Shown here piece by piece: positions 26,891 to 57,800 of a stretch of DNA of 64,000 nucleotides (positions are counted from its first letter, which is position 1; every line of letters starts with the position of its first letter). The notes below the pieces were generated by a model. It searched no databases. It saw only the letters and a program-made list of their open reading frames with translations, and was not told the origin of the DNA. The stretch is from Haematococcus lacustris (lineage: Eukaryota > Chlorophyta > Chlorophyceae > Chlamydomonadales > Haematococcaceae), in NCBI GenBank assembly GCA_030144725.1, contig JASKMD010000025.1, forward strand, positions 3,515,716 through 3,579,715. Reading direction: 5' to 3'. The translations under genes were made by a program, and so were the position numbers.

Positions 26891-29800
26891 TCACGACCCC
26901 GCCGCCAGCCGCCTTCTCAATGCCATGATGTCCACGTCCACCGCCTGCGTCTGAACTGCGCCAAAGTCCAGCTGCGCGCCCGCCTTGAGCTTGGCGCTGA
27001 TGACCTTGGAGGTGGCCGCCTCTGCGGCGCGGGAGGTGGCTAGACTGGACAGCCCCAAGGGGGCGGTGTCGAAGCCTGAGGGGAAAGAGGGCGCCGTGAC
27101 CTGCTGCACCCTGCACAGGGCAGGCAGGTGGGGAGGGGGCGGGCAGAGAGTCAGGGGGGCCAGCAAGGGGTCAGGGGGCAGGCAGTGCAAGGGGGCAGGC
27201 AGGGAGTCAGGGGAGAAGGCAGTGCAAGGGGGGCAGCAGGTGCGGAGCCAGTGGGCGAGGGGCCTACTGGTGTTCATGACGTGCATGGAGGGTGGCAGGT
27301 GAGGTGGAGAGGGAGGGAGCGAGGGAGGGTGGTGGCAGCGCTGCGGATGCCAAAGCTGGTGATTTTTGCATTGCTACCTGTTGCCAACTGGGTTCATGAG
27401 GAGTGGTTGCTCACAGCAATGCCCATGGGGAACTGGCCCTGGTTGTGAGCAGCAGTGGTGACCAGCAGCCAGCAGCCCCACAGCCAGTCTTGCCGCGCCA
27501 TGCCACCACCCACCCTCTGGCATGGTGGCACTAGGTCTGCTTACCTGCTCACCCTGCCCTCTACAAAAGCTGCCCCACCCTGCAGTTCCCTTCAGCTGTT
27601 CAGTTGTCCAGCCATATAGCCAACACTGCCAGCCACCTGCAAAGCTCTTCATCTGGCCTGGCCCTGCCCTGCTCACACATCTGATCAGTTCTGTTTAGGC
27701 AGAGCCCTTCACTACCAAAACCTGTGTTTGTTGGACACATGCAAAGCAGGGCACATGCCCAGGTAGGTCATGGGCTCAAACCCTGCGCGGCTCACTTCTT
27801 GCCCGTGAAGAGCTGATATAGGTGCTCCAGCAGCGCACAGCCAGCGCCATGGAGCCCTGCCGCTGTGCCCTCCACTAGCTCAGCTGGCAGCAGCATGCCC
27901 TGCAGGTTTAAACCGTGAGGTGCAGGTGCCGACACCAGCCAGGCACGAAGGCACTGCGCTATGCCACCCTGTCGAAATTGGCTGTGGCGACTGAGATGCC
28001 ATGAAGTCCAGGCTAGTGCTAGTGCAGGCTTTGGTCGGAGTGCCCTTTGCCCTTTGGTCGGAGTGCCCTTTGGGCATATGAGAACGAGTGACATCGCCCC
28101 CTGGGTATAATTAGGAGCTCAGCAGGTGTTAGCTGATATGAGCCTAGTGGCGCAATGCCTCCGAGGAAGCGGCCCAGTGCCGCGGAGCAAGATCCGCTTC
28201 CGATTGAAAGCCCGCGAAAACGAGGTTCGTCGTAGTCGTGGTGTGGTCCGCTACAACTGTGCAGTCCGTCGACATCCGCGCTGCTCACATCGCTTCTGTT
28301 TATGCCAGCGCAGGTCCTAGCGTCCCTCCAGCCAAACAACGCGAGGAGCGAAGGGCTGCATGGAATACCCAGCGCCGACAGGTGCGCACCCCCGCCTTGT
28401 ACGCCCCAGCACTGCTCGTGTATTGGTGTCCCCGCATTGCCGGCCTGTCAAAACATTGATTGTGCTTGGTCGCCGCAGGTCATCAAAGTCCCGGGTGGCG
28501 CCGTGCTGCGGGGCTGCAAGAAGACGAAGCGAAAGCTAATGGCCCATTTCCAGCTCATGGCCGGCATCCATTCTCAGCTCCGAGTGATCGCGTCGCTGTT
28601 TGTGCTCAGGATCTTCCTGACCTGCCTTGTGGGATACTCCACCCCTGGGTACCCCAACGCCTCTACACCTCCAGCCGTGCAGCCTCCTCGTGCACTGGAT
28701 GCTGCCCCCTTGCCCCCACTCCCCCTGCGTGTCCCTGCCCAGCCAGCAACCCTGGCTATGGATTGGGAGCCAGAGCCTGATCCTGAGCCAGAGCCTGAGC
28801 CTGAGCCGGAACCTGAGCCTGCCCCAGCGCCACCCACACTGCGCCCACCCAGCGCCCGCATTGCTGCCCGCCACCCCCCACCAGCAGCTCCCACTGGGCC
28901 ACCCATGCCCCTTGACTGCGAAGACCCAGTCCTGCTGCAGCAGCTCAAGGTGTTTTGCTTGTACTTTGCTAACTCCAACTTCCTCACCCCCTACAACCAG
29001 CTGCAGCGGCGGCTTGGCCGGCCTGGGCAGAACAAGCACTTCAGCCTAAAGCCAGCCTTTGACGACCCCAGCAACCAGGAGCTACTGGCCAAGCTTCAGC
29101 AACTGGGCAGCACCAACTTCACCGGTGACCACAACACCGTCAGCCACCACTCCATGCAGCTGGCGGTCGCCATGCAGCAGCACTACTCCAACCCAGGCAA
29201 GTGGTGGTGGCGAATAGACTCTGGACCTGGACCTTGACATAGACCTGACCTGACCTAGACCTAACCTAACCTGACCTGACCTTAAACCTGACCTGACCTG
29301 ACCTTAAACCTGACCTGACCTTAAACCTGACCTGACCTTACCTTACCTGACCAGGGCCCGGCTTGGCTGGAGCGGGGAGGAGGCTCAGCTCTTCACCAAG
29401 CTGACGTGTGGGTACAGCCTCAACAGTGACAGCCCTGAGCTGCAGGCGCCCAACCTTGACAAGGCGCATGTCAACGACCTGATGGAGGAGGCAGCCAAGC
29501 AGCGGAGACTGCTGGCCCTGGAGGAGGGAGACTCCTTGCAGGACACCGTACCCCTGCCCTGCCGCATGCGCCATGCGGTGCATGTGTGCAGGTGCCTGGA
29601 GCAGTGGCAGCAGCCCCCCCCCCCCCCCCCTGCCAGGCAAGCCAAAGCGTGGCGGGCGTAGTGTGGGGCCCCGGGTCCTGACCTGCCCACCCCCCTTCAC
29701 CCTCACCCCCCTGGCCAGGGCAGGGGTGCACTTCATCAAGGTGGACAGCAGGGTACTGCGAGGGGTGTGCAAGCAGCTGGGGCTCACAAGGGAGACAGAA

Positions 29801-31498
29801 GAGGTGTTCTGCGCAGTGACATGCCGGTGTCATGCCAACCATGTCAGCCACCATGTTAGCCACCATGTGTGTGCCTTGTGTGCATGGCTGCAGTTGGAGG
29901 AGAACATGGCGGAGGTGTCCATGGAGCGTCATGGGCATGCCAAACAGCTGGTGGTGTTCTTTGGAGCAGCTAGCATTGGCACCAGGGGTGGCTGGGGTGC
30001 TGATGCGGTGCTGCGGGCCTGCCGCAAGGTGGTGTGCAGGCCCAGGGGCACAGACCAGCGGCGGGGCAGGGTGGTGCTTGTGGATGAGCACCGCACCACC
30101 CGGGTCAGCTCAGCAATGAATGGCCAGCAGCCCTGTGAGAGGCAGCTGAACAAGCGCAGGGCCACCAGGCCTGCAAACTGGAAGCCACCAGCAGGGCAGG
30201 TGGAACAGCGCCTGCTGCGTCCAGCCTGGAGCCAGCAGCGTAACCTGCCAGTGCGGGGCATGATGTGGTGCCCAGTGGTGGCCCCCTGCAAGCCCCCACA
30301 GGCCCCACGCAGCAGCCAGGCAGCCACACAGGCAGCAGCCTCAGAGCCAGGACCCAGCACTCCCCTGCCAGCCAAGCGCAGCAAGCGCACCAAGGCTGAG
30401 CCAGAGGCAGCTGAGCCCACCAAGGGCAAGGGCAAGGCTGCCAAAGCCAAGCCAGCACCACAGCCAGGCAGGTGGCTGGACAGGGACTGCAATGCAGCAT
30501 TGAACATGCAGCGCATTGGAGAGAGCAAGTGGCGTCCGCTGGAGCTGTGCTTCTGGCCAGACCAGGGAGCGCTGCCAGCCAAGGGCAAGGAGTACCCTGG
30601 CCTGGGCTACAAGCGAGTGCGAGACAAGCCACCCAAGGCCCAGCAGCAGCAGCAGCCTGCTGAGGCACAGTAGTGTGTGCCCCCCCTCTTGAGCTGTCAT
30701 CAGCTTTCAATTAGTGCATGTATTGTCATGCCAACTCTACGTCATAGCCCTCGTGGTCAGGCAATGCTGTAGGTGGTAGGCGACCGTGACCATGTGTATG
30801 CCATGTTTAGGCCATGTGCATGCCATGTGATGGGAACACCACACAGGAAAAACACTGTTTTGTAGTGGTCCACAACTAGTGTGTTCGACTGCAATGAAGG
30901 CTCAAGGGTTGAGGGCCAAGGTGCTGAGATGCCATAAGGCGGGAGCCTGCTCCAATGTCTGCACTAAGCTGCTGCTGGCATTTCGTTGGCAAGGGTGAGT
31001 CTGGCAGCACCCAGGGATTAGTACCTGTTTTTCACAAAAGCGCTGCACCTGCTGCCAGTTGTCACGCTTGTATCGGCTGGATGTCGCATTGGCAAAGCCA
31101 TGCATCTGGATGTCATGCTGCAGCCACATGCAAAGCAATGCCAGTATCAACCGTGCTGTCAACGAGGTCCTCCAAGCTGCTTTCGGTGCTCACAGGGTAG
31201 TATCTGCTGAAAATCTCAGCTACGATGAATCCATTGGCGATATCCCTGCACAGCACATGTTGTAGCCTGCATGTTGTACTACTAGCCTTCGAGGAACGGG
31301 CGTTCTTCCCGTCCTATACACACACCTTCGAACATTCTTTAGGGAGTGCGACAAGTCGAGGCTCTGTACCCATTTGTAAACCTCTCGCGTCAAGGCCGGG
31401 GTGTCCGGCGGGGCTTGGTAGCCATACACGGTGCTATCAGGCGGCCTCTGCCGTCTGCCAGGGGACACGTGCGCAGTGTTTGCCATTGGTGAAGTCAT
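26891..31498 (-). CDS. SPATA4-like calponin-homology (CH_2) domain protein
   Basis: SPATA4/SPEF1-type CH proteins are associated with cilia and flagella and with microtubules. Five exons in transcription order: 31498-31326, 31245-31194, 31117-31025, 27899-27796 and 27110-26891. They total 642 nt, a closed frame of 213 aa. The CH domain reads through the junctions: VYKWVQSLDLSHSLKNVRRD, then NGFIVAEIFSRYYP, HDIQMHGFANATSSRYKRDN, WQQVQRFCEKQ, and GMLLPAELVEGTAAGL ending LLEHLYQLFTGKK. This follows the order seen in SPATA4. The final exon (ATSRAAEAATSKVISAKLKA) is the usual short tail. Intron 3 (27900-31024) is unusually long because a 2.9-kb Fanzor element is inserted in it in the opposite orientation. 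A second ATG 12 nt downstream could also be the start. Confidence 0.85.
28155..30673 (+). pseudogene. Fanzor (TnpB-like predicted RNA-guided nuclease), N-terminal half plus RuvC-II/III
   Basis: Exon-like blocks: 28155-28381 (MPPRKRPSAAEQDP...), 28479-29200 (VIKVPGGAVLRGCKKTKRKL; acidic PEPEP stretch; LKVFCLYFANSNFLTPYNQL), 29355 to about 29815 ([39 protein letters not shown]) and 29893-30673. Compared with the copy at 54 kb, the segment from after [10 protein letters not shown] to the intron before LEEDMAEV is deleted, removing the RuvC-I Asp. RuvC-II VDEHRTT (Glu codon 30086-30088) and Ruv[13 protein letters not shown] (Asp codon 30485-30487) remain. Further damage: a TAG at 28233-28235 (codon 27) and a 17-C run at 29614-29630 that shifts frame. 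Between the Cys-poor zinc-ribbon region and RuvC-III sits a long Lys-rich insert ([11 protein letters not shown]) resembling a nuclear localisation signal. Inactive as it stands. Confidence 0.8.
29230..29350. repeat. CTGACC/CTTAAAC satellite-like run inside the Fanzor intron
   Basis: Irregular tandem units of ACCTGACCTGACC with CTTAAACCTGACC variants fill the intron between 29201 and 29354 in the Fanzor copy. Confidence 0.7.
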
Positions 31499-32624
31499 TT
31501 AGCTGTGTTTAGATACACAGGGTATTGATTGTGCGTAGAAACACAAATGTGGACAATGCAACACAAGGGGAAAACTGCAATTTGATTGCCAATCATGATG
31601 TGTGTCATGCCATCAATTAACCAAACAATCAAATTGCCCTTTACAAAGAGGATGTGTGTGCTCTAGGGCTCTAGGGAATCGGTTAGGGACACGTAGGGTA
31701 GGTCCCGACTCCTAGGTTAGGGACACACACCGGTCTCTCACTGCTGTGGGGAAGTGGAGGGGCTCCACAGGAGGATAGGGATACAGGGATGTAGGTACAT
31801 CCATTCAGATGTATCTACTGTCGTACAGGTAGTTGTGTGGCAGGCCTGAGTCAGGCGCTCCCAACATTCAAAAAATGGCAGTAAACCGACCCCTGGTAGT
31901 AGGACGGCTGTAACTCTGTACTCGCTGCGCCAAAATTTATGCTAGCTGGCTCAGAATGTAGCCAACCCAGTCAGCTACCTTTCACCCATCCAGAATAATT
32001 ATCCAGTTAGTAGGCCGTGCAGTGCAAAGCATCAAAGTTAGTAATTTGAATTTGAGCCGGTTCGGGGCATGCAGTCATCGCTGCGACCGCCCGCGCCGCT
32101 TCGGTTGCTCTACACGAGCATGCGCATCGGCAGAAGCAGTCGGATTGGAAAACGGTTGCGGGAATGTGGCACGAAGGCGGTTGGCAGGTGGTTGGGGGAG
32201 GTGGCCGGTACAGCCTTTGTTGCGCACTTTACAACCTGAGTTGGCGCTGGGGGGCTGTCTAACTGAGTCTCAGGCCTGGGATAGAAGTCCTGGCATAGAA
32301 GTTTGGAAATATATTGCATGCAGGCCTTACGTGTCGAAGTCGGGGTCCTCCGGCACTGCTCTAGGCCCACCCACACCAGTTCGTCTCTTCTTCCTCGCCA
32401 TAAACAATAGCAACGCGAGGCAGCAACACGTACTAAGGATTTTCGTGCTTGTCACACACATGTCCCATGTCCCATGTTGCTGCTACTACTTTCACTAGTA
32501 GAAACTGAAAGTCGTGTAAAACAAAGGTAGCTTACCCAATTGTTGCTGCTAGTACTCACTATCACTACTGAACGACCCCAGTCACGAGCCCGGCGCAGAG
32601 TAGTTTCGATCACTTAGCACCGCG
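31499..32624. promoter_or_regulatory. Divergent promoter region, SPATA4-like / proteasome alpha-4
   Basis: This 1.1-kb region lies between the two start codons and should contain both promoters. It includes a 12-bp perfect inverted repeat GCAATTTGATTG (31577-31588) / CAATCAAATTGC (31626-31637). A dispersed repeat (ACCCCTGGTAGTAGGACGGC at about 31890) has a second copy near 36300. No other gene seen. Confidence 0.4.
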
Positions 32625-35476
<2,852 letters not shown>

Positions 35477-35823
35477 GGATGGCACCAGAGCTGGCTGCTT
35501 GGGTGCTTACTCGTAAGATGCGCGCACCCTGCGCTCGACGTCGTCGAGGTGTGCCAGTTTCGATGTCGACGAGCGCATACATGAAGGGACGTCGCGCACG
35601 TCGTTCAGGTCTTTGCATCATTATGCACATGTTGGTGGTGCCATCGTGGCGACAACATGGAACCGCCATTGGGTCGGACATCCTACAGAAGGACCAGGTG
35701 CCTCGGTGCCTTGAGCCTGACTACTGGTTTGCCTCCTTTCTGAGTCAACGAGGCTTTGTTGCGGCTGGGCCACTGTCGGAATGAGTTGTGGCGTCGTTGG
35801 GCCTAGTGGGCCCTGTGAGGATC

Positions 35824-35828
35824 TGTAA
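35824..35828 (+). terminator. TGTAA polyadenylation signal after PAC1
   Basis: TGTAA lies about 350 nt after the PAC1 stop (GATCTGTAAAGCCC). No gene is visible between the stop and this site. Confidence 0.5.
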
Positions 35829-35924
35829 AGCCCGCCTGCAGCCCAAACTCGCGCTGTGGCCATTCATGTTGTGCAGCAGACGAAGCTAATGACGATGCAG
35901 TGATGCCGGCTGGCAGGTGATCCG

Positions 35925-36275
35925 GGCTGCCAAGGGCAAGGAGCACCCTGCGCATGGGTACAAGAGGCTGCGAGACTAGCCACGCAAGGCCAGCAGCAGC
36001 AGCAGCCTGCTGAGGAACAGTAGTGTGTATCCCCATTTGAGCTGTCATCAGCTTACATTTAGCGCATATTAGTCATGCCAACTCGACGCTATAGCCCTCG
36101 CGATCAGGCAATACTGTAGGTGGTAGGCACTCGTGCACCATGTCCATGTGCGTTGGGTATGCTCTACTCAGTCCACTTACACCATTGGAGTAGTCCCGCT
36201 ATTGATTCCTAATGGCCCCTAGTGGTACGGCTGAAATGGAGGCCCTAGTGAGGGACAAAGGGGCTGGTCAGACGT
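35925..36275 (+). mobile_element. Fanzor element 3' fragment (type-A tail)
   Basis: Starts within the last coding segment (GCTGCCAAGGGCAAGGAGCA; TACAAGAGGCTGCGAGAC), passes the CAG-rich end and the TAG at about 36021, and continues through a type-A tail that ends in CCTAGTGAGGGACAAAGGGG then GCTG. Only the final ~100 coding bases and the tail are present: a strongly 5'-truncated copy. No convincing target-site duplication. Confidence 0.8.
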
Positions 36276-36859
36276 GCACCTCTAATTGATAAGGAACCCA
36301 CCCCTGGTAGCAGGACGACTGTAACTCTGCACTCACTGCGCTGAATGTGCCTATTACACTATGATGCAGGCAACCCAGCCGACTAAACCGAGTGTGTCCA
36401 GGAGGTCGTTTGGCTTTATTGTTACACTGAGCACGATGACAAACCACAAGTGCTGTAAGCTTAAGCATGGGTGGCACGGCTGGCTGCCCATTGGCTAGCT
36501 GGGCGGCGATGAGGGTGCGGCAGCGAGGCACCTATTAGCACGAATCACATGTGGCTGGCCTAGCTGGCTGCTGGCTGGGTCAGGGGAGTTGAGCGGTGCA
36601 CCTGCCCAGATGGGCCACTAGCATGTATGACATAGGTTGCCATGAATGCCATGGCCCTGTAACGACTGTCACTGCTTGGCTGGCATGCTTGTACATGCTT
36701 TGTACATGCTTTGTACTTGTAGTGGCTAGGATTGTCTAAGTTCAAAAGGCGAATGCATGGCATGCTCGCATCTGCTCGGTGTGTGCTCAAGCTGCGTTCG
36801 TCCGGTCAGACAAGGGCCACTGGTCCTGCGTGGCATGGGTAGCACCGGCAGCGCCGCCT
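36276..36859. other. Intergenic region between PAC1 and the GATA gene
   Basis: No gene. It contains the second copy of the dispersed repeat (ACCCCTGGTAGCAGGACGAC at about 36300, cf. 31890) and TTACA at 36422-36426, a possible minus-strand poly(A) signal for the GATA gene. Confidence 0.4.
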
Positions 36860-39800
36860 TTACCGGGTTCCCGGTGCGGAGGCCGCGAGTGGCATCTGCT
36901 TTCGCAACAGGTGGCGTTCCCGCCCTGCTTTCAGCGCTCCCATCTTGCTCGCACGGGTGTGCCGACGGACAGCGGCCATGCGGTGTGTCAAGTCGCTGCA
37001 GCTGTCTTGGCTCGCACCCGCGTCAACCTCCGTGGCTTGCCCGGTGACAACCTTAGCACGCTTAGGAGAGGGGTCTGCAGTTCCGGAGGGATGGACTGCA
37101 TGCCTGGTTTTGCCCACTGCGAGTGTGCCGCCGCTGCTGCCAGCGAAGCAAGGGGCAGCCTGCACCCCTGCTGAGTCGCCTGGCAAGGGGCTAGTAGAGA
37201 ACGAGGTACAGCTATTGGCAGGGGAGCAAGCAGAGGCAGAGGATGGAGAGGGGGCAGGCTGTGGTGAATGCTTTTGAGCGCGGCACCGTTTCTGGTACCG
37301 TAGTCCACACCTGCAGCCACCGCAACAGCGCCCCTGAGGCACCAAGTTTCTTGTGAGCGTGTGCTGAGTACCTACACAGCTCCGAATGCTGCTAGCTACC
37401 TGATGAGCTACTCACACCTGCCAGGTGCCACTTCATCCTCACGATTCTTGCTGCACGTTGGCGTTGTTTGCCTCCTGTCCTACGACTCTGCCTTTGCGTT
37501 TGATTGCGATTCTTGCCTGCTACTACTTGTAGCACATACCACTAGCTGCAGCACACATGCGACTTACGTGTTGCACAGGTTTGCAAATACTGGGGTGGCG
37601 GGCCCCAGAATGGGCACCTGCTTCATTGGCAACAGCGCCACCAGCCCCCCTTGCCTCAGCTGGCCACACTGCTGCTTGCCGTCCTTTGCGTGGGTACTTG
37701 TTGCCCACTGGGCTGATGAGGGAGGTGCTGTCCTTGGCCCTGGCAGCTGCCCTCCAATGCCAACGACTGGGCTGGTGCACGCCAGTGCTGGCTCTGCTGC
37801 TGCATGCAGCAGGTTGACTGTGGCCCGCCGCTGCACTTGGTGACGCTGCAGCATCACCGGCCCACTGCCCTGGCTGACCCCACTGCTCACCCCTGCTGCT
37901 CCCAGCCGCTGCTGATGGTAGCCCAGCGCAGAGGTGGTGGAGGCATCAACCACTGCTCCAGCAGGCGCTGCTGCCTCAAAGCTGCCTTCACCTGGCAGCC
38001 CTGCTCCGCTTGCAGCTGGGGTGCCATGTGCAGGGGCTGGGTCCGAGGCTGGGCTGGGTGCGGCCGTGCTTGGCAGCGGTGGGCCCCGCCGCCACACAGG
38101 GCTGACCAGCGTGCCGCACTCCCAGCACTGCACTGACCAGCGTGCCAGCGCCCCCCTGCCAGTCGCCTGCGACTTGACGAACAGAGTAGCTGGGATCTGG
38201 ACGTGGAGCGGGACTCCCTGTCGGGCTGCAGCCGCATGGACTGCAGCCCAAGCCTTTGACAGCTCTGTGCGACTGTCTTTGTAGGCCTGCAGGTGGAGGG
38301 CAGGTGGAGAGCAGGATGCATGTCAGTGATGGCTGCCTTGGTGGGATGGAAGGCAGTGCCTAGCGTGCTGCAGCTTCCAGTTGCTTCCAGTCCAGCCAGG
38401 CAGCCCAGCCAGAAGGCTCACTTACCAGATCAGCTTGCCACAACCTGAACCGCGTGCAAGCCTGCCTAGCCTGCTAATCATGCATGTGTGTCATGCCAAG
38501 ATGGCTAGAAGGTTTGTAAGGGGTCAGGCGACATTGCAAGGGGTCTGGGCCCGCAGTTTCAGGGGCACTATTGCACACGTCGTGACTGACTGCACTCTTT
38601 AATAACGTGCCACTGGGTGCATTGGTGCAGCTTGACTAGAGGCAGAGGTGGAGCATGAAGCCTGTGTGGCCTGTGCAGGCCAGAGAGGCCCTGTGTGGCC
38701 CTGTTGCCTATTGTGTGGGCCAGCTGTTGTCATGCTGCAGTGGAGGGCAATCCTACTAACTGCATGTAGCTTGCAGCTGTGCATCCTTACCTGTATGTTA
38801 GGCGCCACACCAGTTGTGTGGAGGTTGTCAGTCGCAGCTATTGGCTGTCTGCAGGCACCCAGACGTCCCCGGACAGATGCTGTGGGCGTACCTATAGAGC
38901 TGCCAGCTCCTTGCCAAGCAGCTTCTGGGCTTACTGGAGCTGAGCTGCTGACCACGCGACCAGCTGCTTGACCCCAAGTACTCGCTTGCTGGTTTCCTTG
39001 GACCAATGGACCCAGTGACGGTGTGGGGGATGGCAGGGTGGTGGGGGGGAGCAGGAAGGGCCTTGGGGACTGGGCCTGTCGAGCCAGGGTGAGGGGCTGA
39101 GTGTGTGACTGCCCGGGCTGCACATCAGGCTGAGCAGCGGCAGGGGGCAGGACAGCTGACTGGAGGCGGGTGGCTGCAGCTTGCATCAGCTGCAGGGCAC
39201 GGAGCCTGATGGAAGGCCATGCAGAATGTGCTACTTGCTGCACAGGCTGCAGGCTTGGAGTGTGGCCTGGCTTGAGGTGTTGTGCAGCAGGAGGAGCAGG
39301 AGGAGCAGCGTTGGTTGACTGGCCGGAACTTAAGCCTTGTGCCGCAGCTTGCAGCATGGAGCTTGGTGGCAGAGGTGGTGGATGGGCACCGCCAAATGAC
39401 AAGAACGAGGTGTTGGGCCACTGACATGTGGGTGAGGGCAGTAGGGTAGGGGGCACCCCCACCCCTGGTCCTGGCGGTTGATGGTGTGGTGTCTGCCCTG
39501 AGACGAGGCATGAGAGACATGCTGCTGCTGGGCTGTGCTGGAACATGGGCATTGGGAGGTGTAGCTGATCTGGCACACACAGCTCTGACGGTGCTTTTGT
39601 CAAATGCATGGGCACAGCCACACCTGGTTGCGCTGTACTTGCTGCAATTGGGTGCGCTAGTGGGGCACTGGCAACAGGTTGCTGGGGACAGGCTGTGGGC
39701 AAGAGGGTTGGCATATCAGCGGCGGCATTCTCTGGCATCGTTGCTGGGGCCAACCCATACTCAGATGCTGCCGTGTTTGTAGCTTGAAGGAGACCTTTGC

Positions 39801-44053: not shown

Positions 44054-44162
44054 GGCCATGCCGGCGCGAGCGATCGCGGACACACCTCAGCTGCTCACAA
44101 TCGATTGTTCTAGTGGTGAGTAGCGGCACCAATGACTGAGCTGCGCCTGCTATCGAGCAGGA
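44054..44162. repeat. Dispersed repeat, second copy at about 46922-47030
   Basis: Both copies share GGCCATGCC, ACACCTCAGCTGCTC, GTAGCGGCA and GCTGCGCC/ACTGCGCC blocks in the same order and orientation over about 105 bp. It probably marks two copies of one transposable element or a segmental duplication. Confidence 0.6.
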
Positions 44163-45497: not shown

Positions 45498-45712
45498 CCC
45501 AGCCCCGCCCTCCCACCCCCTCCCACCCCTAGCCCCACCCCTCCCACCCCCTCCCAGCCCCAGTCCCGCCCTCCCAGCCCCTCCCACCCCCAGCCCCACC
45601 CCTCTCACCCCCTCCCAGCCCCTCGCAGCCACAGCCCCGCCCTTCCACCCTTTCCCAGCCCCAGCCCCGCCCCTCCCACCCCCTCCCAGCCCCTCCCAAC
45701 ACCAGCCTAGAA
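45498..45712. repeat. CCCCTCCCA C-rich minisatellite
   Basis: Irregular units of CCCCTCCCACC and CCTCCCAGCCCC over about 215 bp. A shorter stretch of the same sequence lies at about 44500-44545, on the other side of the TIR element. Confidence 0.85.
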
Positions 45713-45737
45713 GCACAGCTGCGCAAGTGCCTCCCCT

Positions 45738-47527: not shown

Positions 47528-47548
47528 GCTGTAGCTGAGGTAAGCGGA

Positions 47549-47908
47549 GTGTGCCAGCCGAAAGCAAGTGTGCACAAGGAGTACCCTGAGCATGAGTATT
47601 AGCGGGTGCGAGGCAAGCCACCCAAGGCCCAGAAGCAGCAGCAGCAGCAGCCTGTTGAGGAACAGTAGTGTGTGCCCTCCATTGAGCTGTCATCAGCTTA
47701 CATTTAGCGCATGTTTGTCATGCCAACTCTACACTATAGCCCTCAGGGGTCAGGCAATACTATAGGTGGTAGGCACTCATGCACCATGTTCATGTGCATT
47801 GGGTTCAGTCCACACAGTCCCTGAACACCGTTTGAGTAGTCTCGCTAGTGGTCTCTAGTGGTCCCTAGTGGTTTGGCTCAAATGGAGGCCCTAGTGAGGG
47901 ACAAGGGG
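47549..47908 (+). mobile_element. Fanzor element 3' fragment (type-A tail) with probable TSD
   Basis: Starts inside the last coding segment (GTGCCAGCC; AAGGAGTACCCTGAGCATG), passes TAG at about 47667 and ends with the type-A tail CCTAGTGAGGGACAAGGGG. The flanks GCTGTAGCTGAGGTAA (47528-47543) and GCTGTTGCTGAGGCAA (47909-47924) match at 14 of 16 positions, a probable aged target-site duplication. The copy is therefore a 5'-truncated insertion of about 360 bp. Confidence 0.75.
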
Positions 47909-47924
47909 GCTGTTGCTGAGGCAA

Positions 47925-48530
47925 ATATACACCATGGATCGCATGGCAAGCACATTGACAGAGCACAAGAAACAAACTAATACTGATCTGATCACTGTCC
48001 AACCCCCCAAGGTAACAGCCTCATACTACCGTGATAACCTGTGACCTTCGATTGATGATCTTTCTCTGCCGAGTGGGGCCAGTGGCAGCAACCAGGTCAG
48101 GCCGTCGGTACTCAAGCTCGGACTGCAGCCACATGTCATGCGCCATGCACAAGCAACTGTGGTCACTGCAGTGAGGTGAAGCTACCTGCAAATACAGCTT
48201 GTGTGAACCCACAACCAACAGCAAGCAGGAATGTTGTGGGTTTGAGCTCACGCAACTGTGTCAGGAGGCATGTACACCTCAGCTATGTGTGTGCCTACAC
48301 GCCGACACTGGCACGCTAACCCTGGTGTTGGTCACAATAACTAGTGCGGGATCAATGGGAGGTGCAGTAGCAGAGAGGGGTGCAGAGTCATCAACACGGT
48401 AAGGATGGTCAGCTGTGACAGGTCACCAGGCCTACAAAAGCGGCAGTCCTGTGCTGCCGGACCAGCCCCAGGTCCTTCTCACTCTCCTGACTCAATACAT
48501 GCTGGAGCTGTGATTGTGGCACATGCAGCT
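47925..48530. other. Intergenic, no gene seen
   Basis: No convincing coding or repeat structure. Confidence 0.4.
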
Positions 48531-49620
48531 ACCTGTGCCAGACTCTGACTTTGGCTCTCAGTCAAACTCACATTCTGATTGTGAGCCCATGAAAACTCAC
48601 AACCTCATTCTGAGCCAGAGTCTGTGTCAGGACCAGCCTGCCAGCCCACCCTCAGGCCACCCAGCGACCCATGATGCGGCCCTCTGCCCCCAGCACCAGC
48701 TGGGCCACCCCTGCCCCTTGACAGTGAAGACCACCTGATGCTGTGGCAGCTGAAGGACTTTTGCAGGTGATTACCAAAACCGATTATATGAAAGTCTACA
48801 GCCAGCTGCAGTGCGCGAGGGGCAGGCGCAAGGGGCAGCACCCCAATCCTATCCTCAAGCCTATTGTTGACGACCCCAGCAACCAGGCCCTGCTGGCCGA
48901 GCTGCAGTAGTCGGGCAGCACCACGCTTACGGGGGACCACACCACCATTAGGCGGTCAGCATGTTGCAACACTTCTCTGATGCAGGCAAGCAGTGATGCT
49001 GTGTGGATGAGGCCGACATGGCCTGGCCTGCCCTAACCTCCTGACCATGTGCAAGGTCAGGCAATAGTGCAGGTGCAAGGCACCCTTGCTATGTGCGTGG
49101 GAACACATCTCCATACAGACAAATACTAACCATAGTGGGTGGTGACTCATGACTCAGCCTTTGCGTCAGTACTTGCTGCCCTCCAGGCAGATGAGGGAGG
49201 TGCTGATACCAAGGCTGGTTAGACTGGTTAGGCAACAATCATTGCTCCTGGCCAAGGCAAGGGCAAGGCCGCCGAAACCTTGCAGCCAGGCAGGTTGGTA
49301 GACAAGGTCTACAAAGCAGCCCTGAACATGAAACGCATTGGGGAAAGCTAGTGGCGCCCACTGGAGCTGTGGTCCTGGCAGGACCTGAGTAAGCTGCACT
49401 TATGAGCAAGGGGTGCCCGGAGCTGGGCTACAAGCGGCTGTGAGGCCGCCCACCCAAGGCCTAGCAGCAGCAGACTGTGGCACAACATTGTAGCCCCACC
49501 CTAGAGCTGTTTTAGGGGAAGTTGGCGCATGTTTGTCATGCCAATCTGCCTGGCTGCCTCCTAAGGGGCTAGGCAGCAACACAGGGTGTAGGCACCTGCA
49601 TTCTCAGGGACTGGAACTGA
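48531..49620 (+). pseudogene. Old, degenerate Fanzor-family copy
   Basis: Scattered blocks match copy 1 in the same order: GGGCCACCC(C/A)TGCCCCTTGAC at about 48700, the N-terminal block GACGACCCCAGCAACCAGG at about 48870, the GCAGCACCACGCTTACGGGG block at about 48915, and near the end CTGAACATGAAACGCATTGG (RuvC-III downstream) at about 49321. The sequence has many stops and frameshifts and lacks the central nuclease part. Its tail differs from types A and B (GGGGCTAGGCAGCAACACAG), suggesting an older subfamily. Confidence 0.65.
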
Positions 49621-50394
49621 TCAAGGCATGGCTCCCCAGCCTGCAGTGCCTCCGCGCCTCACCCCCCCTCACGGCTTGAGCGATGCAAGCTAAGTGCGAA
49701 GAGTGCCAGCAGAATCCGAAGCTAGTGCATGATTTGCCTGCCTGTAGCCTTGCAGCAAGAGGCACTGAGCAGGAGGAGTCAGTAAGAGCGTCCATGGCCT
49801 TGCCCACAAAGCAACACATGCGGGCTTCTGAAGAGCTTGAACATGTCAAGCAGCCTGTTGCCTGCTGCGCAGTGAACATGCAGTGAGAAGGAAGAGCAAG
49901 TAGCAACCGTTTGAGCTGTGCTTGTTGCACATGCAGCTACCTATTATTCACTAGTGGTGACCCTGCACTGGATTGCGCACATGCAGCGTTTGTAACGCAG
50001 GTAAACATTGTACAGGCAAACCAAAAACCGCCAGTATAGGGACCATGTGTAGAGCACCTGTTGCCCACTGGGATGATAGGACTGCTTGCTGTTACACGTG
50101 CTGTTAGCTTGGTTGTGCCTTGCTTGCTGTCGTTAGTGAGAATGGATACAGTCGCGAAGTACCATCTACTACAGAGCGAGACAAAGGGCAAGAAGCGCAA
50201 GGGCGCGGATGAGCCCAAACAGCCCAAACCCAAGGTCCCCAAGCCAAAGCCCAAGGGCTATGTTTGGCGGGGTAGGACCCACATGCCTTGGTGCTTAAGG
50301 GCAGCAGTTAGGGGTGTGTTGGTGAAGTGGGTGAACATGGTCCCGCATGACAGTTGCAAGACAAGCGCAAGGAATGTTCTAGCAAGCAGCTCAC
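49621..50394. other. Downstream of prolyl 4-hydroxylase; unassigned frames
   Basis: A short plus-strand frame (49683-49886, KCEECQQNPKLVHD) and a Lys-rich one (50142-50266, SETKGKKRKGADEPKQPKPK) are visible but match nothing I know. The remaining 3' exon or UTR of the prolyl 4-hydroxylase gene should lie here. Confidence 0.3.
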
Positions 50395-52497
50395 CTGGTT
50401 GAAGGCAAGATAGCCTACTGCCTGCCGGTTGCGCATGTAGCAGGTAGTGTCGCCAGGAGTGGAACATTCGGTGCACACCCGGCAAGATTTCATGCAGTTG
50501 CCAACCTGGAAGCAGGCAGGCAGTTGATCCATTGGAAAGAAAGCAGATCAGGTTGCTATTGCTCTTGGCTATGGCTTGCTGCTGCCTGGTGCCCACCTGA
50601 GCTGCACTAAAGGGCCCTTAGTGCTGTCAGCACTACATCGCTGATCATGGACCTTGCTCAGCTCAGATCATACCAGCGACTGTGCCCTTTGGGAGTGCCC
50701 TTTGGAGGTGCGAGAATGAGTGACATTGACATGTGCATGGGAACTCCACACAGGAAAAAACACCGCTTTGTAGTGGTTCACAATTATTGTGTTCGACTGC
50801 AATGAAGGCTCAAGGTTGAGGGCCAAGGTGCTGCCTGGTGTCCACAAACTAAGATCTCTCTTTTCCCGATCCCGTCTCACCACTAGTGGTCCGCCTTTCT
50901 GCACAAGAAGCAGCAGGGTGCAATTGAGGGGTTGGTCAGCAAGCATGGGGAAGAGAGTAGCATGGCGATGCAGGTACTGCTCACACCTACCATGAATACT
51001 GAGTTCCTCTCGCACTCTCCAGCCGCTGCCCACTTTGGACACTGATCTGAGCCGTCTGTGCAAAAGCCAGGGTCTTGAAACGGAGGGTTGACACGGAACT
51101 TGTTACTGCTTGGGTTGTACTCCTCCTGCAAGGCACCACATTCCACATCATGCAGCCAATGTGCCCGCAAATGCCTATGTGAACAGGGCCAGAGCCCACA
51201 AGCATCCAAGTTACCTGCCCGCTGTGGGAGCAGAGCATATCACTGGGGTGGGCGGGTGGGTATCACGTAGCTGGGCTGCAAGGGATGGGCAAACTCTAAC
51301 CATGCAGCCAAATTATTTAATTATTGATGGAGTGGGAGCCACTGGCACTCACTGGGCGGAAGGGCTTGGTGTGGATCCTGTGAGCACACAGGAGCAAAGC
51401 AGTCCAATGAGTCAGCAGTCAGCAGTGTGGTCGACGGCCACAGGGCTGCAACCAGCGCTACTGTGGTAATGCCTGCGACCCTTACACCTGACTGTTGCTC
51501 GTCATGTAAGCCGCCCTAGAGCCTCCAATGCGACAGAGGCATGGTGTCATGGCCATGGTGTCATGGTGTCATGCCATGCCATAGCAGCAATGCCAAAGGG
51601 TGGATCTGGCTGTAGCTTGTATCCACAGCTGGCAGTGCTGGCACATCAGCCCAGGCTCACAGGGGTGCTTTGACTGCGCTGTCAGCTAAAAGCTGCATAT
51701 GGGCTTGCAGCCCTGGCTTACAGTCCTATAGCCCTGTCACAGGGTCCAGGCAGTAGTGTAGGTGGGAGACACCCATGCCATGTGCAAAGGAGTAGAGATC
51801 CTCCATACAGACAATACCCCTTCTCCAGCGAGAGTTCCCAATAAACGCAGGCTTTGTGTTGGCCCTTGTTGCCCGCTGGGCTGCTGAGGGGGTTGCTGAT
51901 GGGTGGATGATGGTCATGACAGCTGCAACGTGAGGAACGCGTGCAGGTGCTCACCATGTGGTGGTGGTCCACTTAGAGCCCACCAGCACAGGGCAGCCCT
52001 CATGTGTGGATGCAGGGTCCATGGTGCTCCCATCTGGGTGGGTTGACCAGAACAGCAGGCCATCGCCACGCCGCGGCTTGACAGCCACATGCCCCTGTGC
52101 AGGCAGGTAAGCTGTAGCCTGTCGAAACATCACGTCGGAGCAGCATATCAGTTTGGCCGTCCACCCACAGAGACGTGCAAAGCTATATCACAAGTACACA
52201 CACACACCCATGAAGCTGCAGGGCCACATTGCAGCAAGTTGGAGAGCGCTCCTTCCATGTAGGGGTGGCACTTTGCAGGTGGTTTTTGTGCTTGGCAGGC
52301 TGTTGTGCAAGGCAGCAGAGGGCAGATCTCAGGGGTGAGCCAGGGTGGATAAAAGGCCTCATGCTGCCATAATTTGCAGAGGACAGCAACAAGCAAGCTT
52401 GCCTTGGCACACGAGGAAAACTCGGCGCCATACGTCTGTTCCAATTGTGGATGCGCCCACTGCAATCACCAGCACAAACGCGGTTCAGTTTCCTTTG

Positions 52498-52539
<42 letters not shown>

Positions 52540-55500
52540 TGCTTGACATTCGTGGATATGGGGTCTTATCTACCAGTTCAGGCTTGCTTCATGGGGGCAC
52601 GCTAGGCCTTACAGCTTTGGCACAACTCATACCACTCGTTGCCTGCCAGGCCAGCAGCCTACACTGGCGCCTGGGCCACACAGTTGAAGGTCGAGGGCAC
52701 ACCACCCAAGGGCCTGCGTGGTACCGCGTCTGCCTGCCCTGCCCAGCCAGCCATGCTGGGCCCCGTGGCAAGCAGAAGCTGCTTCACAATGCCAGAGCTG
52801 GGCATGCGGTCAACATAGCCCAGCCAATGCAGCCTGCGCTCTTATAGTAGTGTATGTCATAGGTGTACTGCACTGCAATGCAGTTGTATGCTATAGGCTG
52901 AGGCAGATGCACCGAGCTTGGCACAATCCATTGGCATAAGCTTTGCCTCGCATGGCACCTGCCTGGGAGCGCTCAGGGAAAGCTGTCTCACCGCCCTCCG
53001 TTGCATCTGCAAGAGATAAAGGAGCAGCGGCAATCTCGACTGCTCCCCTGTGCTTACTGCAGCAGGAGACTGTGTGGAGCCATTGCTGACCCCTGCCAGC
53101 GTGTCCCAGGAGAGCTGTATGCTGCTTCCTGCTGCAATGCCCACCGCTCAAGTACAACAGCAGCGTTGCCATCCGCGGAGAGTCTTCTGACAATGAATCT
53201 TGGTGGCGGTGGTAGTACTGCATGGCAAGTAGGGGGTTCGCTGAAGCCAGGCATGGAAAGTTACAACAGGAGAGGACCATGCATGTTGAGGTGTGCAGCA
53301 CCATGCAGTGAGCTGCTTCCGTGCAATGAGGTACATCTGTCCATGCACAGCAAGGCATGGGCCATGCCCCAAGCAGCTGAGCAGCCCCTGCTAGACTATT
53401 GAGGATCATGGGGGTGGGAAAGGGAAGCAAGTGGAGATCCTTGAGCGCATGCATCACCATAAGGGGGCCAGAGACAGGAGCAGCAGAAGCCTGTCGAGCA
53501 GTTGAGAAGCCTCTCAACCTGATGCATGAGCGCACCTGCCCAACACCATACCGCAGCACTTGCATATCTTCTTGGTGCAGCACAGGGGCGTGTGTGTACA
53601 GGGCAATGCGGTCTTGAATGGCTTGCATGATGCTGTCCTGATACCTGCATGCAGGAAGGCAGCAGGTACGCAAGGGTGATTGAGAAGCGAACGCGTCAGT
53701 ACAGTTATGTGAGCATGGTAGGCATGCATCAGCTGCCTTTGGCCAGCCTGGAGCTAGCGATATGTCATGTCAGTGCGGGGAAGGGTGCAGTCACCCAGGA
53801 ACCCCCATGCAGACACATTTCCACCAGGCAACCGCACAGCCAGCACTCAGCAAACCCCTGCCGACCATAGCTGCCATTGTACATGGAGCGCATTGGGGAC
53901 GGCATGTGGCACCCATTGGGGCTGAGCTGGTGACCAGAGCAGCTGGAGTTGTTTGCCAAGGGCAGGGAGTACCCTGGGCTGGTGTGCAAGCGAGCACGTA
54001 AGCACCCAAGGCCTAGCAGGAGGTGTAGCATGGCAGTGGCACGAGTAAGGCTCACGCAACATATCATCAATGGTTAAAAAAGCCTATTTGTTACAGCCCC
54101 ACCTTCAGCACCTTGGCCCTCAACCATGAGCCTTCATTGCAGTCGAACACACTAAGTGTGGACCACTACAAGGCCCCACCTTCAGCACCTGGCAGCGGCC
54201 AGCTTAGCCGGCTCCTCCTTGATGGCCTACCTCAAGCACATCGCCAACACCCTGATCAATTGGGATGCAATGTGGGAGGGATTAACTGGACCCTAAGAGG
54301 GCTTGACAGCGGTCCGCTGTGTACAGGAGCAAACAGCGGGCATCAAAGAAGTTCTTGAGGCAGTGGATGTAGGCATCCCTGCTGTTGGGAAGTGGTGGCA
54401 CTACAAAACCTGAGCTGCTGTTCCATGCCTAAACGATCATACCAGCGACTGTGCCCATGCGGTGCATGTGTGCAGGCACCTGGAGCAGTGGCAGCAGCCC
54501 CCCACCACACCCGTGGCAGGGCAGCCAAAGCGTGACAGGCGTAGGGTAGGCCCTAGGGTCCTGACCTGCCCACCCCCCTTCACCCTCACCCCCTTGGCCA
54601 GGGCAGGGCTGCACTTCATCAAGGTGGACAGCAGGGTGTTGCACGGGGTGTGCAAGCAGCTGGGGCTCAGGCGGGAGACAGTGCCGGTGTTCACTTCAGA
54701 GCCAGCCCGTAGCCAGCATTGGAACAGGTGGTTTAGCACGAAGCAGCTGGCCAACCAGGGGTTTGAGTTCGAGAGGACGGTGGAGACTGATGGTGTCAGT
54801 GTGTGTGTGCACTACACCCGCCCCCTCCCAACCCCTCCTGCGCCACCCTCAGCAGCAGGCCCCTCCAGCAGCAACAGCAGCCCAGTGGCAGCCCCAGGTG
54901 CAGCAGCTGTAGCGGCTCATGAGTTGGGACTGCCCCACATTGGCAAGGGCCTAGCCGAGCAGCGTGAGTTTGTGTTCAATCCAGCCACTCAGATTGGGGT
55001 GGGCATCGACCCCGGCGTCACCCAGGCAGTCAGCGCAGCCTCAGGGGTGCGAGAATGAGTGACAAGCCAGCTGCTGGCAGACCAGCTGCGCCGGTGGAAG
55101 CTGACCAAGGGCCAGGTCAAGCATGGCAGTGGCCTGAACAATGCCCGTCGTGACACTGAGCGGTGGCTCGCACCGATCAAGCCCCACCTCCAGCACCTGG
55201 CAGCAGCCAGCTCAGCCGGCACCTCCCTGGTGGCCAACCTGAAGCACATCACCGTCACCCTGGCCACCTGGGATGCGGTGTGGGAGGTGTACCTGGACCC
55301 CAAGTGGGCAGAGCAGCGGCTGGGGCTGTACGGAGCTCAGGACCGGACACTGGAGCAGTTCTTCAAGAAGGTGAGGGTGGGTAGGTGTGAGGGAGGGAGG
55401 GTAAGGGACTGGGAGGTGGTGGGTTGGTCAAGAAATAAGAGAGAACTTGACTGTGTCATGCCTAACCTGGTGCCACCATGTCAGCCACCATGTGTGTGCC

Positions 55501-57800
55501 TTGTGTGCATGGCTGCAGTTAGAGGAGGACATGGCGGAGGTGTCCATGGAGCGCTATGGGCGTGCCAAGCAGCTGGTGGTGTTCTTTGGAGCAGCTAGCA
55601 TTGGCACCAGGGGTGGCTGGGGTGCTGATGCAGTGCTGCGGGCCTGCTGCATGGTGGTGTGCAGGCCCAGGGGCACAGACCAGCGGCGGGGCAGGGTGGT
55701 GCTTGTAAATGAGCACCGCACCAGCCGGGTCAGCTCAGCAGTGAATGGCCAGCAGCCCTGTGAGAGGCAGCTGAACAAGCGCAGGGCCACCAGGCCTGCA
55801 GGCTGGAAGCCCCCAGCAGGGCAGGTGGAACCCCGCCTGCTGCGCCCAGCCTGGAGCCAGCAGCGTGACCAACCGGTGCGGGGCATGATGTGGTGCCCGG
55901 TGGTGCCCCCCCGCAAGCCCCCACAGGCCCCATGCAACAGCCAGGCAGACACACAGCCTGCAGCCTCAGAGCCTGGGCCCAGCACTCCCCTGCCAGCCAA
56001 GCGCAGCAAGCGCACCAAGGCTGAGCCGGCAGCTGAGCCCACCAAGGGCAAGGGCAAGGCTGCCAAAGCAAAGCCAGCACCACATCCAGGCAGGTGGCTG
56101 GACAGGGACTGCAATGCAGCGCTGAACATGCAGCGCATTGGAGAGAGCAAGTGGCGTCCACTGGAGCTGTGCTACTGGCCAGGTCAGGGAGCTCTGCCAG
56201 CCAAGGGCAAGGAGTACCCTGGCCTGGGCTACAAGCGAGTGCGAGACAAGCCACCCAAGGCCCAGCAGCAGCAGCCTGCTGAGGCACAGTAGTGTGTGCC
56301 CCCCCTTTGAGCTGTCATCAGCTTTCAATTAGTGCATGTTCTGTCATGCCAACTCTACGTCATAGCCCTGTCACAGGGGTCAGGCAATGCTATAGGTGGT
56401 AGGCGACCATGACCATGTGTATACCATGTGCAAGCCATGTGTATGCCATGTGTATGCCATGTGCATGGGAACTCCACACAGAAAAATCCACCGCTTTGTA
56501 GTGGTTCACAATTATTGTGTTCGACTGCAATGAAGGCTCAAGGTTGAGGGCCAAGGTGCTGTTCCATGCCTATCCAATATGTGTGCCCCGCAGCTGGAGT
56601 GTAGGCGACAAACAGTTACGGAAGCGCAAGGGCAGACGCAAGCAGCTGGTGATCTTTCTTCGTGAAGCTGGGCTGGGCTTGTGGGGTAGGATGCAGCAGA
56701 GTGCTCCTGGCCTTCCGCGCAGTGTTGAAGAGGCCCAGCAGGCGCAAGCAACGGACTGCCCGGCTTGGTCATGCTAATGGACGAGCACCGCACCCAAGCC
56801 CTGTAAGACCTGTAAGCACCGCACCCAAGCCCTGTAAGACACGGCTGAAATACTGGAGGCTACTGGGACTGAGGGCTACAAGCAGATCAGGTGAAGCTCC
56901 ATCTGGTGCACCCGGCCTGGAGCCAGCAGCACGTCTCAGGTGGCCCCATGCCAGCTCCCACAGCTCCCCAAGCAGCCAGGCAGCTACACAGTCAGTGACG
57001 TCAGAGCCAGGGCCCGGTGCACCCATGCCAGCCAAGCGAAGCAAGCGCAGCAAGGCTGAGCAGGTACACGAGCCCACCCCGCCCACCAAGGCACAGGCCA
57101 AGGCACAGGCCAAGTCTGCCATGGCCAAAGCAGTATCACAGCCAGGCAGGTAGGTACACCGGGACTACACTGCTGCGCTGAACGTGCAGCTCATTGGGGA
57201 AAGCTAGTGGCGCACGCTATAGCTGTGTTGGTGGCCAGAGCAGCCACCCCTGCCAGCCACACTATCTAGTCGTCCCTCATGGGGGTCAGGCAGTAGTGCA
57301 GGGAGTAGGCTTTGGCAATCTCGGGGACACTGCTGTAGACTTGGGCTGCTGGAGGAGGAAGAAGGCAAGGCAAGGCACAGGATCAGGCATTGCCCAGCGG
57401 GCCACATCATACTGACCTGTTCACAAATGTGCCATAGCTTGTACGATAGTCGTCCAAGACAGAGGAACCGTTTGCCCCAACAACTGTGCTGCGTTGCCTG
57501 CAAGTCACATGGAGACAAATTGACCTTGTGCTGTCTGTTGCCTTTGCAGCATCTACCTGTCATTTTGTCTCACATCTGTGGCCAGGAGATGTTCACAATG
57601 TGTTGAGCCTCCTCATCGGTGAGGAAGTTGTGGAAGTAGAAAGCGCGGGGTCGCCACGCTATGGTCTCAACCCAGGGCAGGCGCTGCGGTGCCTGGGGTT
57701 TGTAACTCTCCCCGCGCCATCCAATGAGTTGCTCGTCTAGCTCCCGGCCTAGGGCCATGGAAAGCATGAATACCAGTGTCACAGCTATGTACATTGACAT
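50395..57800 (-). CDS. Prolyl 4-hydroxylase alpha-subunit type, with C-terminal ShK domain
   Basis: An Fe(II)/2-oxoglutarate dioxygenase that hydroxylates proline in secretory or cell-wall proteins, in the ER/Golgi. Exons I can place, in transcription order: 57800-57574 (membrane anchor [32 protein letters not shown]), 57497-57417 ([20 protein letters not shown]), 53644-53536 ([10 protein letters not shown]), 53217-53145 ([10 protein letters not shown] with the HxD iron ligands), 53006 to about 52970 ([12 protein letters not shown]), 52094-51955 ([30 protein letters not shown] with the distal His and the 2-oxoglutarate Lys), 51125-50991 and 50505-50395 (ShK domain: [13 protein letters not shown], then NCMKSCRVC). 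The first four junctions are in frame; those around 52.9 and 51.9-51.2 kb are unresolved and may hide small exons. An earlier ATG at 57962 is possible. Intron 2 (53645-57416) is swollen by nested Fanzor elements. Confidence 0.85.
50597..50833 (+). mobile_element. Short internally deleted Fanzor-element derivative (MITE-like, ~240 bp)
   Basis: The element's 5' leader (ATCATACCAGCGACTGTGCC, GGAGTGCCCTTTGGAGGTGC, GAGAATGAGTGACATTGAC) is joined at about 50728 directly to the type-B tail (GTGCATGGGAACTCCACACA to GGCCAAGGTGCTG). All coding sequence is missing. A flanking direct repeat GCTGCCTGGTGCCCAC (50581-50596) / GCTGCCTGGTGTCCAC (50830-50845) matches at 15 of 16. It lies in the 3' part of the prolyl 4-hydroxylase gene, between the two ShK exons. 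Confidence 0.7.
52499..52540. repeat. Short (ATC)n microsatellite
   Basis: About 14 ATC units, in an intron of the prolyl 4-hydroxylase gene. Same motif as the long array at 34.6 kb. Confidence 0.9.
53860..54030 (+). pseudogene. Degenerate Fanzor 3' coding fragment
   Basis: Blocks matching the RuvC-III-downstream region: ATGGAGCGCATTGGGGACGG, GGGCTGAGCTGGTGACCAGA and CAGGGAGTACCCTGGGCTGG, ending in a remnant CCCAAGGCCTAGCAGG. Heavily mutated. Inside prolyl 4-hydroxylase intron 2. Confidence 0.6.
54114..54172 (-). mobile_element. Solo Fanzor-element tail inserted into an older Fanzor fragment
   Basis: In minus orientation, the last part of the type-B tail: CTTGTAGTGGTCCAC, the hairpin CACACTTAGTGTG, then to the terminal GGCCAAGGTGCTG. 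It is flanked by an 18-bp perfect direct repeat GCCCCACCTTCAGCACCT at 54096-54113 and 54173-54190. The net insertion is 77 bp. The repeat sequence itself belongs to an older Fanzor coding fragment, so this is nested. Confidence 0.8.
54173..54305 (+). pseudogene. Degenerate Fanzor central-domain fragment
   Basis: CCTGGCAGCGGCCAGC through GGGATGCAATGTGGGAGG resembles the segment of copy 2 at about 55180-55290 (the part encoding [18 protein letters not shown] to WDAVWEVY), with frameshifts. It was interrupted by the solo tail at 54114-54172. Confidence 0.6.
54432..56561 (+). mobile_element. Fanzor element copy 2 (2.1 kb, type-B tail), inside prolyl 4-hydroxylase intron 2
   Basis: Flanked by a direct repeat TTCCATGCCTA at 54421-54431 and 56562-56572; 15 bp match if the GCTG shared with the element end is counted. 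The left end begins AACGATCATACCAGCGACTG, like the leader of the 50.6-kb derivative, then jumps into the middle of the gene, so the N-terminal exons are deleted. The right end is the type-B tail ending GGCCAAGGTGCTG. It is antisense to the host gene. Confidence 0.85.
54454..56292 (+). pseudogene. Fanzor (TnpB-like predicted RNA-guided nuclease), nuclease half with RuvC-I, II, III
   Basis: Exon 54454-55370 encodes [51 protein letters not shown] and Ruv[18 protein letters not shown] (Asp codon 55008-55010), then [20 protein letters not shown] and FFKK. A GT-AG intron (55371-55518) precedes [40 protein letters not shown], Ruv[16 protein letters not shown] (Glu codon 55711-55713), the Lys-rich insert, and Ruv[22 protein letters not shown] (Asp codon 56107-56109), ending at TAG 56290-56292. 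All three catalytic acidic residues of the D-E-D set are present. Defects: the N-terminal ~400 residues are missing, and an in-frame TGA at 55056-55058 follows RuvC-I. The zinc-ribbon Cys pairs are largely lost (only NGQQPC and MMWCPVV remain). Family assignment rests on motif order and the TDGVSV / GIDPG / DExxT / RDxNAA signatures. Confidence 0.85.
56590..57290 (+). pseudogene. Degenerate Fanzor-family copy
   Basis: Follows copy 2 directly. It has recognisable blocks: CGCAAGCAGCTGGTGATCTT (cf. KQLVVFF), GGACGAGCACCGCACC at about 56780 (RuvC-II), the insert ([12 protein letters not shown] at about 57030-57065), and AACGTGCAGCTCATTGGGGA near 57181 (RuvC-III downstream). Many stops and gaps. 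The tail at about 57270-57320 has the GGGGGTCAGGCAGTAGTGCA block. Confidence 0.65.

Follow-up and report, generated by a model that had tools for sequence, protein, structure and literature searches.

A multi-copy family of Fanzor1-type mobile elements lacking the zinc knuckle in Haematococcus lacustris

Introduction

Fanzors are RNA-guided enzymes that cut DNA. We describe here a 64,000-nt stretch of contig C136 of the green alga Haematococcus lacustris (assembly of 307.9 Mb in 597 contigs), referred to as the window, and the many broken copies it holds of an element encoding a Fanzor1-type RuvC nuclease. The closest described elements are CRe-1, CRe-2 and CRe-3 of Chlamydomonas reinhardtii, which carry a multi-exon Fanzor1 gene; in the available text of Bao and Jurka (2013; PMC3627910) they are frequently 5′-truncated or internally deleted with intact 3′ ends, have duplications of about 7–19 bp that are absent at insertions reaching the full 5′ end, and have ends that match verified Helitrons. 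The TnpB of IS607/IS605 elements is a RuvC nuclease with a guide RNA that derives from the right end of the element, according to the accessible part of PMC10711439. The Fanzor/TnpB motifs given in the available portions of both papers demand CxxC at the first zinc position, and the zinc finger is stated in the latter to be present in many, not all. A genome report on another assembly of H. lacustris gives 47.3% repeats, mostly short and in tandem clusters (PMC7617258, in the part available). In the openly licensed literature the words Fanzor and Haematococcus were found together only in separate places of a published text.

Results and discussion

Self-BLASTN of the window together with tblastn recovered related sequence at all ten sites listed in the preliminary description of this DNA (8.7–9.5 kb on the minus strand, 24.8–25.7, 28.0–30.9, 35.9–36.3, 47.6–47.9, 48.6–49.5, 50.6–50.8, 53.9–54.3, 54.4–56.6 and 56.9–57.3 kb) and added three (9.92–10.0 kb, minus; 59.9–60.1 kb; 60.27–60.42 kb, minus). 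Pairwise identity among the sites is 69–96%, with E-values as low as 0.0, far beyond chance. The site at 53.9–54.3 kb is an older copy containing a separate 67-bp copy on the minus strand. Copies are 5′-truncated or internally deleted; every window copy is defective, and none spans the whole protein undamaged: the middle is absent from copy A, the N-terminal part from copies B and G, and nearly everything from copies C, D and E. Three near-complete copies (F1, F2 and F3) are located 60–85 kb outside the window. They measure about 3.7–4.1 kb from a common 5′ leader to the tail, with Fanzor exons, the only gene content looked at, distributed along them; F1 and F3 also have flanking sequence in common. 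The protein of copy B has 884 relatives at E ≤ 1e-3 (7999 candidates scored), of which the best 120 are all from H. lacustris at 53–92% identity; relatives from other algae may lie beyond these. This is a real and abundant Fanzor1-type element family. In an extended region of 264 kb (the window plus 200 kb) we counted 22 tails, a density that would scale to some 25,000 genome-wide when extrapolated from this one region.

Copy B (54432–56561, plus strand) has lost most of its 5′ part and retains a complete 3′ end; removal of a GT-AG intron yields a single protein bar one in-frame stop. An exon at 54456–55370 encodes the middle of the protein with the TDGVSV motif (54786–54803) and the RuvC-I motif GIDPG bearing the catalytic D (55002–55016), and is interrupted by a TGA at 55056–55058. 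The retained intron occupies 55371–55518, and the last exon (55519–56292, stop TAG) encodes RuvC-II as NEHRT (55708–55722) and RuvC-III as RDCNAALNM (56104–56130). The motifs TDGVSV, GIDPG, DEHRT and RuvC-III named beforehand are thus all present, with NEHRT taking the place of DEHRT in copy B and its catalytic E retained; DEHRT itself is found in copies A and G, and RDCNAALNM also in A.

Conservation of these motifs was counted over 240 relatives, the best 120 of the 884 and the best 120 of 256 relatives (E ≤ 1e-3) of a second family, given here in that order; because the search patterns also specify adjacent residues, copies in advanced decay escape the count. The RuvC-I D is kept in 91/95 and 88/91, the RuvC-II E in 129/130 and 98/102, and the RuvC-III D in 131/135 and 94/95 matches. 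Together with the structure comparison of a weak model, this conservation supports the claim of a Fanzor1-type protein with the RuvC residues D-E-D in order; the claim of an algal, multi-copy family is supported as well. RuvC-I reads GIDPG, GCDPG or GVDPG. RuvC-II reads DE[FH]RTS with six residues between the E and the knuckle position, matching the Fanzor pattern in the accessible part of PMC10711439. The knuckle itself is lost, a point absent from the preliminary description: serine occupies the first zinc-cysteine position in 227 of 232 occurrences (126/130 and 101/102) and cysteine in none, and the residues at E+7 to E+10 are mostly S..V, S..R, S..Y or S..D. The loss is common to other subfamilies and to the second, more distant family. 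In the protein P0011 the spacing D-X(125,275)-[TS]-[TS]-X-X is observed (D256, R443-T444-S445, E441), and 74 residues separate the WCP cysteine from RD, compared with X(5,50) in the motif of Bao and Jurka; the window family also has a long low-complexity insertion ahead of RuvC-III. The last exons are 87–95% identical to that of copy B, and third codon positions differ most in 8/8 comparisons, all of which use copy B as the shared reference and are not independent.

The second family, likewise of Fanzor type, lies at C136:3504000–3507000 (L012/L011) and reads GCDPGKTNMATVAH, HEFRTSRVSS and YDRDVSAALNI. Its protein P0141 is 31–33% identical to the window family in a joint alignment, and four short exact words of both tails described below are absent beside it at C136 3506700–3508500. 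We note that several H. lacustris gene models (P0106, P0034, P0056, P0180 and others) combine Fanzor exons with host domains, an acyl-CoA-binding protein in the case of P0106; these may be artefacts of annotating elements that sit within or close to genes.

A hidden Markov model check on the window proteins finds the expected profile, PF07282 (Cas12f1-like_TNB), at sub-threshold level only (E 0.1 and 0.12). In the joint alignment 10 of 27 members match it at E ≤ 0.1 (best 0.0066), and on P0141 the match covers positions 5–60 of 60 (E 0.029). PHROGs gave weak matches, with phrog_506 (‘transposase’) falling over RuvC-III (best E 3.2e-6, P0079); NCBIfam contained nothing naming TnpB above a cut-off, and a scan of IMG/VR with A2 gave 16 stretches matching a pattern, of which none was confirmed. 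The best structural matches of a weak model of a sister-family protein are five Fanzor1 entries.

A common 3′ end is found in nine window copies. Copies A to E are exact at ..GAGGGCCAAGGTGCTG, the last bases are damaged in copy F, and copies G, H and I terminate in ..GAGGGACAA(G/A)GGGGCTG; across the 264 kb, 13 tails are of the first type and 9 of the second. Target duplications of 9–12 bp occur at several copies and are exact in five window copies. Copy A (28003–30926, plus), which comprises the 5′ leader, N-terminal exons, C-terminal exon (DEHRT at 30083–30097) and tail, is flanked by CTG followed by AGATGCCAT at 27991–28002 and 30924–30935. Copy B is flanked by TGCTG followed by TTCCATGCCTA at 54416–54431 and 56557–56572. 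Copy C (50597–50833, plus) is a short fusion of 5′ leader and 3′ tail, flanked by TGCTG followed by CCTGGTG exactly, or by CCTGGTG(c/t)CCAC with one mismatch. The 5′-truncated copies D (82 bp; 9924–10005, minus) and E (67 bp; 54106–54172, minus, within the older copy) have the duplications TGCTG followed by GAATGTCATG and AGGTGCTG followed by AAGGTGGGGC, respectively. The duplications of several truncated copies start with 3–8 nt identical to the element terminus.

A wider scan covered all 22 tails; each was set against the flanks of the 21 others as controls, of which the best three are listed. The scan picks a site by flank and terminus match together, and hence leans towards terminus match; at the picked site, 11 of the 22 tails have a flank score of at least 9 when this score alone is counted, and the other 11 lack such a match. 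In seven of the 11 there is a 3–8 nt match between terminus and target. The fifth base of this microhomology tracks the tail type of the copy: five of the six type-1 cases have T there, the remaining one being limited to CTG, and the single type-2 case has G. Seven copies reach a score of at least 12 and six of these exceed their own controls; copy C does not (control flanks 29 and 14). No duplication beating the controls was found at the near-complete F1, F2 and F3 (3′ ends at C136 3642383, 3651351 and 3657772), F3 having an imperfect one merely equal to controls. The acceptor of the intron before the last exon is present in 4 of 5 copies examined (A, B, F2 and F3), therefore this intron was not removed in copying. 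The common fixed end seems to matter for the spread of copies.

The 3′ tail of copy B (56489–56561, plus; terminus ..GTGCTG) is predicted to form a multi-stem RNA and is a candidate omega-RNA scaffold. For either tail type the predicted fold consists of a stem enclosing an inner hairpin plus a short hairpin 9 nt (type 1) or 12 nt (type 2) from the 3′ end; single-sequence fold z-scores are weak (−0.01 to −2.16). Between types, a hand alignment sets CTCA/TGAG against CCCT/AGGG, with 2 of 4 pairs changed on both sides. The support from this covariation is slight, since the predicted pairing in type 1 is GGCUC/GGGCC and CTCA/TGAG an alternative to it. The likeness of these tails to the three-stem RNAs at Fanzor1 ends described in the available text of PMC10711439 is only suggestive.

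We propose, with a probability of roughly 0.7, that these copies represent a mobile-element family of H. lacustris, probably non-autonomous, with a Fanzor1-type RuvC nuclease as its one recognised gene and spread that is initiated at the 3′ end. We infer RNA guidance, cleavage and a mobilising enzyme; published TnpB and Fanzor work makes a 3′-end guide RNA likely. Transcription of the tail would run past the terminus into the adjoining DNA, the first flank bases serving as guide. The guide would then begin with the duplication and would be directed at the homologous site that lacks an insertion. The nuclease would cut that site and repair would insert a copy of the element, a route already proposed for TnpB. 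A new insertion would begin at the 3′ end, with the terminal GCTG paired to a GCTG-like target, and a frequent early stop of copying would give the 5′-truncated copies. The mobilising enzyme would act in trans. A rolling-circle replicase of the Helitron2 type is the likeliest candidate, as has been argued for CRe-1/2/3, the next best source being LINE (long interspersed nuclear element) reverse transcription. We prefer Helitron2-type copying in view of the intron that the copies keep, the hairpin close to the 3′ end and the parallel with CRe-1/2/3.

Several observations weigh against this proposal. No replicase was identified, no search for a Helitron replicase having been made. Four of the 11 flank-matched tails have a terminus match of 0–1 nt (C136 3416758, 3430435, 3575983 and 3642383), and copy J has a 5′ part without a tail, contrary to a simple 5′-truncation rule. 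The tail alignments contain no covarying pair within either type (0/30 and 0/16). We doubt that GCTG is the target-adjacent motif, because in that case the right end of every copy would itself be exposed; the way in which insertion begins accounts for GCTG better. The C4 zinc finger is absent, no Cys occurring at either E+7 or E+10 (0 of 130 + 102 occurrences). PF07282 has no match at E ≤ 0.001 in the genome and passes its cut-off (26.3) only in P0032 (27.6) and P0079 (26.5), both fused models, of seven scanned. Sequence searches against solved structures reached no Fanzor: four were empty at E ≤ 10, one gave three unrelated chains (E > 1), and another matched the acyl-CoA-binding portion of a fused model, besides a weak unrelated chain (E 1.7). 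The structural model of the sister-family protein is weak (mean predicted local distance difference test score, pLDDT, 53; predicted template modelling score 0.43), its gene model lacks the RuvC-I segment, and the window family's own model is useless (pLDDT 30.7). Overall the Fanzor identity put forward in the preliminary description stands in the main.

The alternative that survives best, though we consider it less probable, is retrotransposition, in which a LINE reverse transcriptase would act in trans, the RNA 3′ terminus would anneal by microhomology to a nicked GCTG target for target-primed reverse transcription, and Fanzor would be a passenger or the nick-maker. It is a serious rival because copies are truncated down to 52–82 bp and the target match resembles pairing; the 9–12 bp duplications, the constant 3′ end and the tracking of tail type by the fifth microhomology base also fit. 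At a distance of about 25–55 kb from the window there are two LINE-type open frames, both with reverse transcriptase and RNase H domains and one with an endonuclease domain as well; they emerged from an incomplete look at the 264 kb (open reading frames of at least 200 residues, motif [FYW][AVGL]DD, low-complexity sequence dropped). Introns, however, are kept, the near-complete copies lack the duplication beating controls that a LINE would leave, and the 3′ end of one LINE, in three copies, consists of a hairpin followed by (TTC)n and does not resemble the Fanzor tail. Its open frame of 3814 residues at L016:5137–9999 and L015:3–6578 (C136:3460852–3472293), scanned in two pieces, has Josephin and endonuclease domains and then reverse transcriptase and RNase H.

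That the family is a long-dead degenerate repeat spread solely by segmental duplication appears unlikely: all window copies are broken and F1 and F3 share flanks, but the exact 3′ ends, target duplications, similarity of last exons, kept catalytic residues and third-position excess are at odds with it. Slightly less probable still is a reading in which a zinc-knuckle-less Fanzor1 clade would still be active and RNA-guided and its own cut would prime insertion by annealing of the terminal GCTG, making Fanzor the insertion enzyme. A different RNase H-fold protein with convergent motifs, outside Fanzor/TnpB, would account for the missing sequence match to solved Fanzors, the lost zinc finger and the insertion before RuvC-III, but is very improbable given the glutamate position, the RTS and RD-N-A-L-N motifs, the PF07282 matches, which are weak yet correctly placed, and the five Fanzor1 entries ranking best structurally.

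Among the remaining copies, copy F (60272–60416, minus) is a 3′ part without convincing duplication; copy G (24774–25723, plus) has the C-terminal exon and the second tail type (..GGGCTG), and copies H (47575–47912, plus) and I (35929–36266, plus) are 3′ parts with that tail. Copy J (approximately 8750–9550, minus) holds the 5′ leader and N-terminal exons, with no 3′ end seen. Old degenerate fragments lie on the plus strand at 48597–49544, 53875–54302 (53875–54047 and 54171–54302, the host of copy E), 56882–57276 (C-terminal) and 59884–60086. A similar short leader follows GTGCTG both behind an element end (L007:6600, minus) and upstream of copy J (window 9600, minus), which suggests insertion behind a pre-existing 3′ end. 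Elsewhere the window contains exons of an ATP-dependent phosphoenolpyruvate carboxykinase (3823–4786; PF01293, E 3.7e-46 and 2.8e-20) and extended arrays of tandemly repeated units of 6, 24 and 3 bases (6091–6541, 15652–16826, 22412–22926 and 34566–34828); the array at 15.7–16.8 kb is within a 2483-residue open frame that spans a 500-base N run at 16828–17327.

Comparison with known systems

New here are the lost zinc knuckle (relative to the published motif), the scale, and the terminus–target match in 7 of 11 cases. A catalytic site without the knuckle would reveal a dispensable part of the nuclease lobe, and with many insertions whose ends can be read, the target motif, guide boundary and role of the nuclease in spread become readable from sequence. 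The work would also name one repeat family of H. lacustris.

Compared with IS607/IS605 TnpB, the Haematococcus elements differ in having DPG and a displaced glutamate, as the accessible part of PMC10711439 gives for Fanzors, and target duplications; no TnpA was seen in them. The solved Fanzor1 proteins SpuFz1 and GtFz1 (PMC10432273 and PMC11423790, in the parts available) rank highest in the structure comparison with the sister-family model and share the D, E, D order, at 9–14% identity in the structure alignment; unlike them, the Haematococcus family is without zinc-knuckle cysteines and, in the window family, has the long insertion before RuvC-III. Helitron2 elements are marked by terminal hairpins at both ends, asymmetric terminal inverted repeats and ends in common with a RepHel element. 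The Haematococcus copies have a predicted hairpin near the 3′ end and, by eye, palindromes near the 5′ end of C, F1 and F3, at most a tentative likeness; no RepHel partner for these ends was identified, none having been searched for. One LINE family was examined in the 264 kb, and its 3′ end differs from that of the Fanzor elements. Similar abundance in a green alga is described in the available text on Auxenochlorella, where an uncharacterised Fanzor-coding element is the most abundant repeat (PMC12633428).

The preliminary description held the insertion pattern to be unlike that of the usual carriers. For algae this is not supported, given the close precedent of 2013: 5′-truncated anatomy with variable duplications is already known from CRe-1/2/3. 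The duplications of CRe elements follow TTTT or T-rich tetranucleotides in the available account, whereas 7 of 11 in Haematococcus follow a GCTG-like stretch matching their own terminus. Both groups are found in a green alga and have a multi-exon Fanzor1 gene, the same truncation pattern and variable duplications, and the near-complete Haematococcus copies are without a duplication that beats the controls, much as the accessible text reports absence for full-length CRe insertions.
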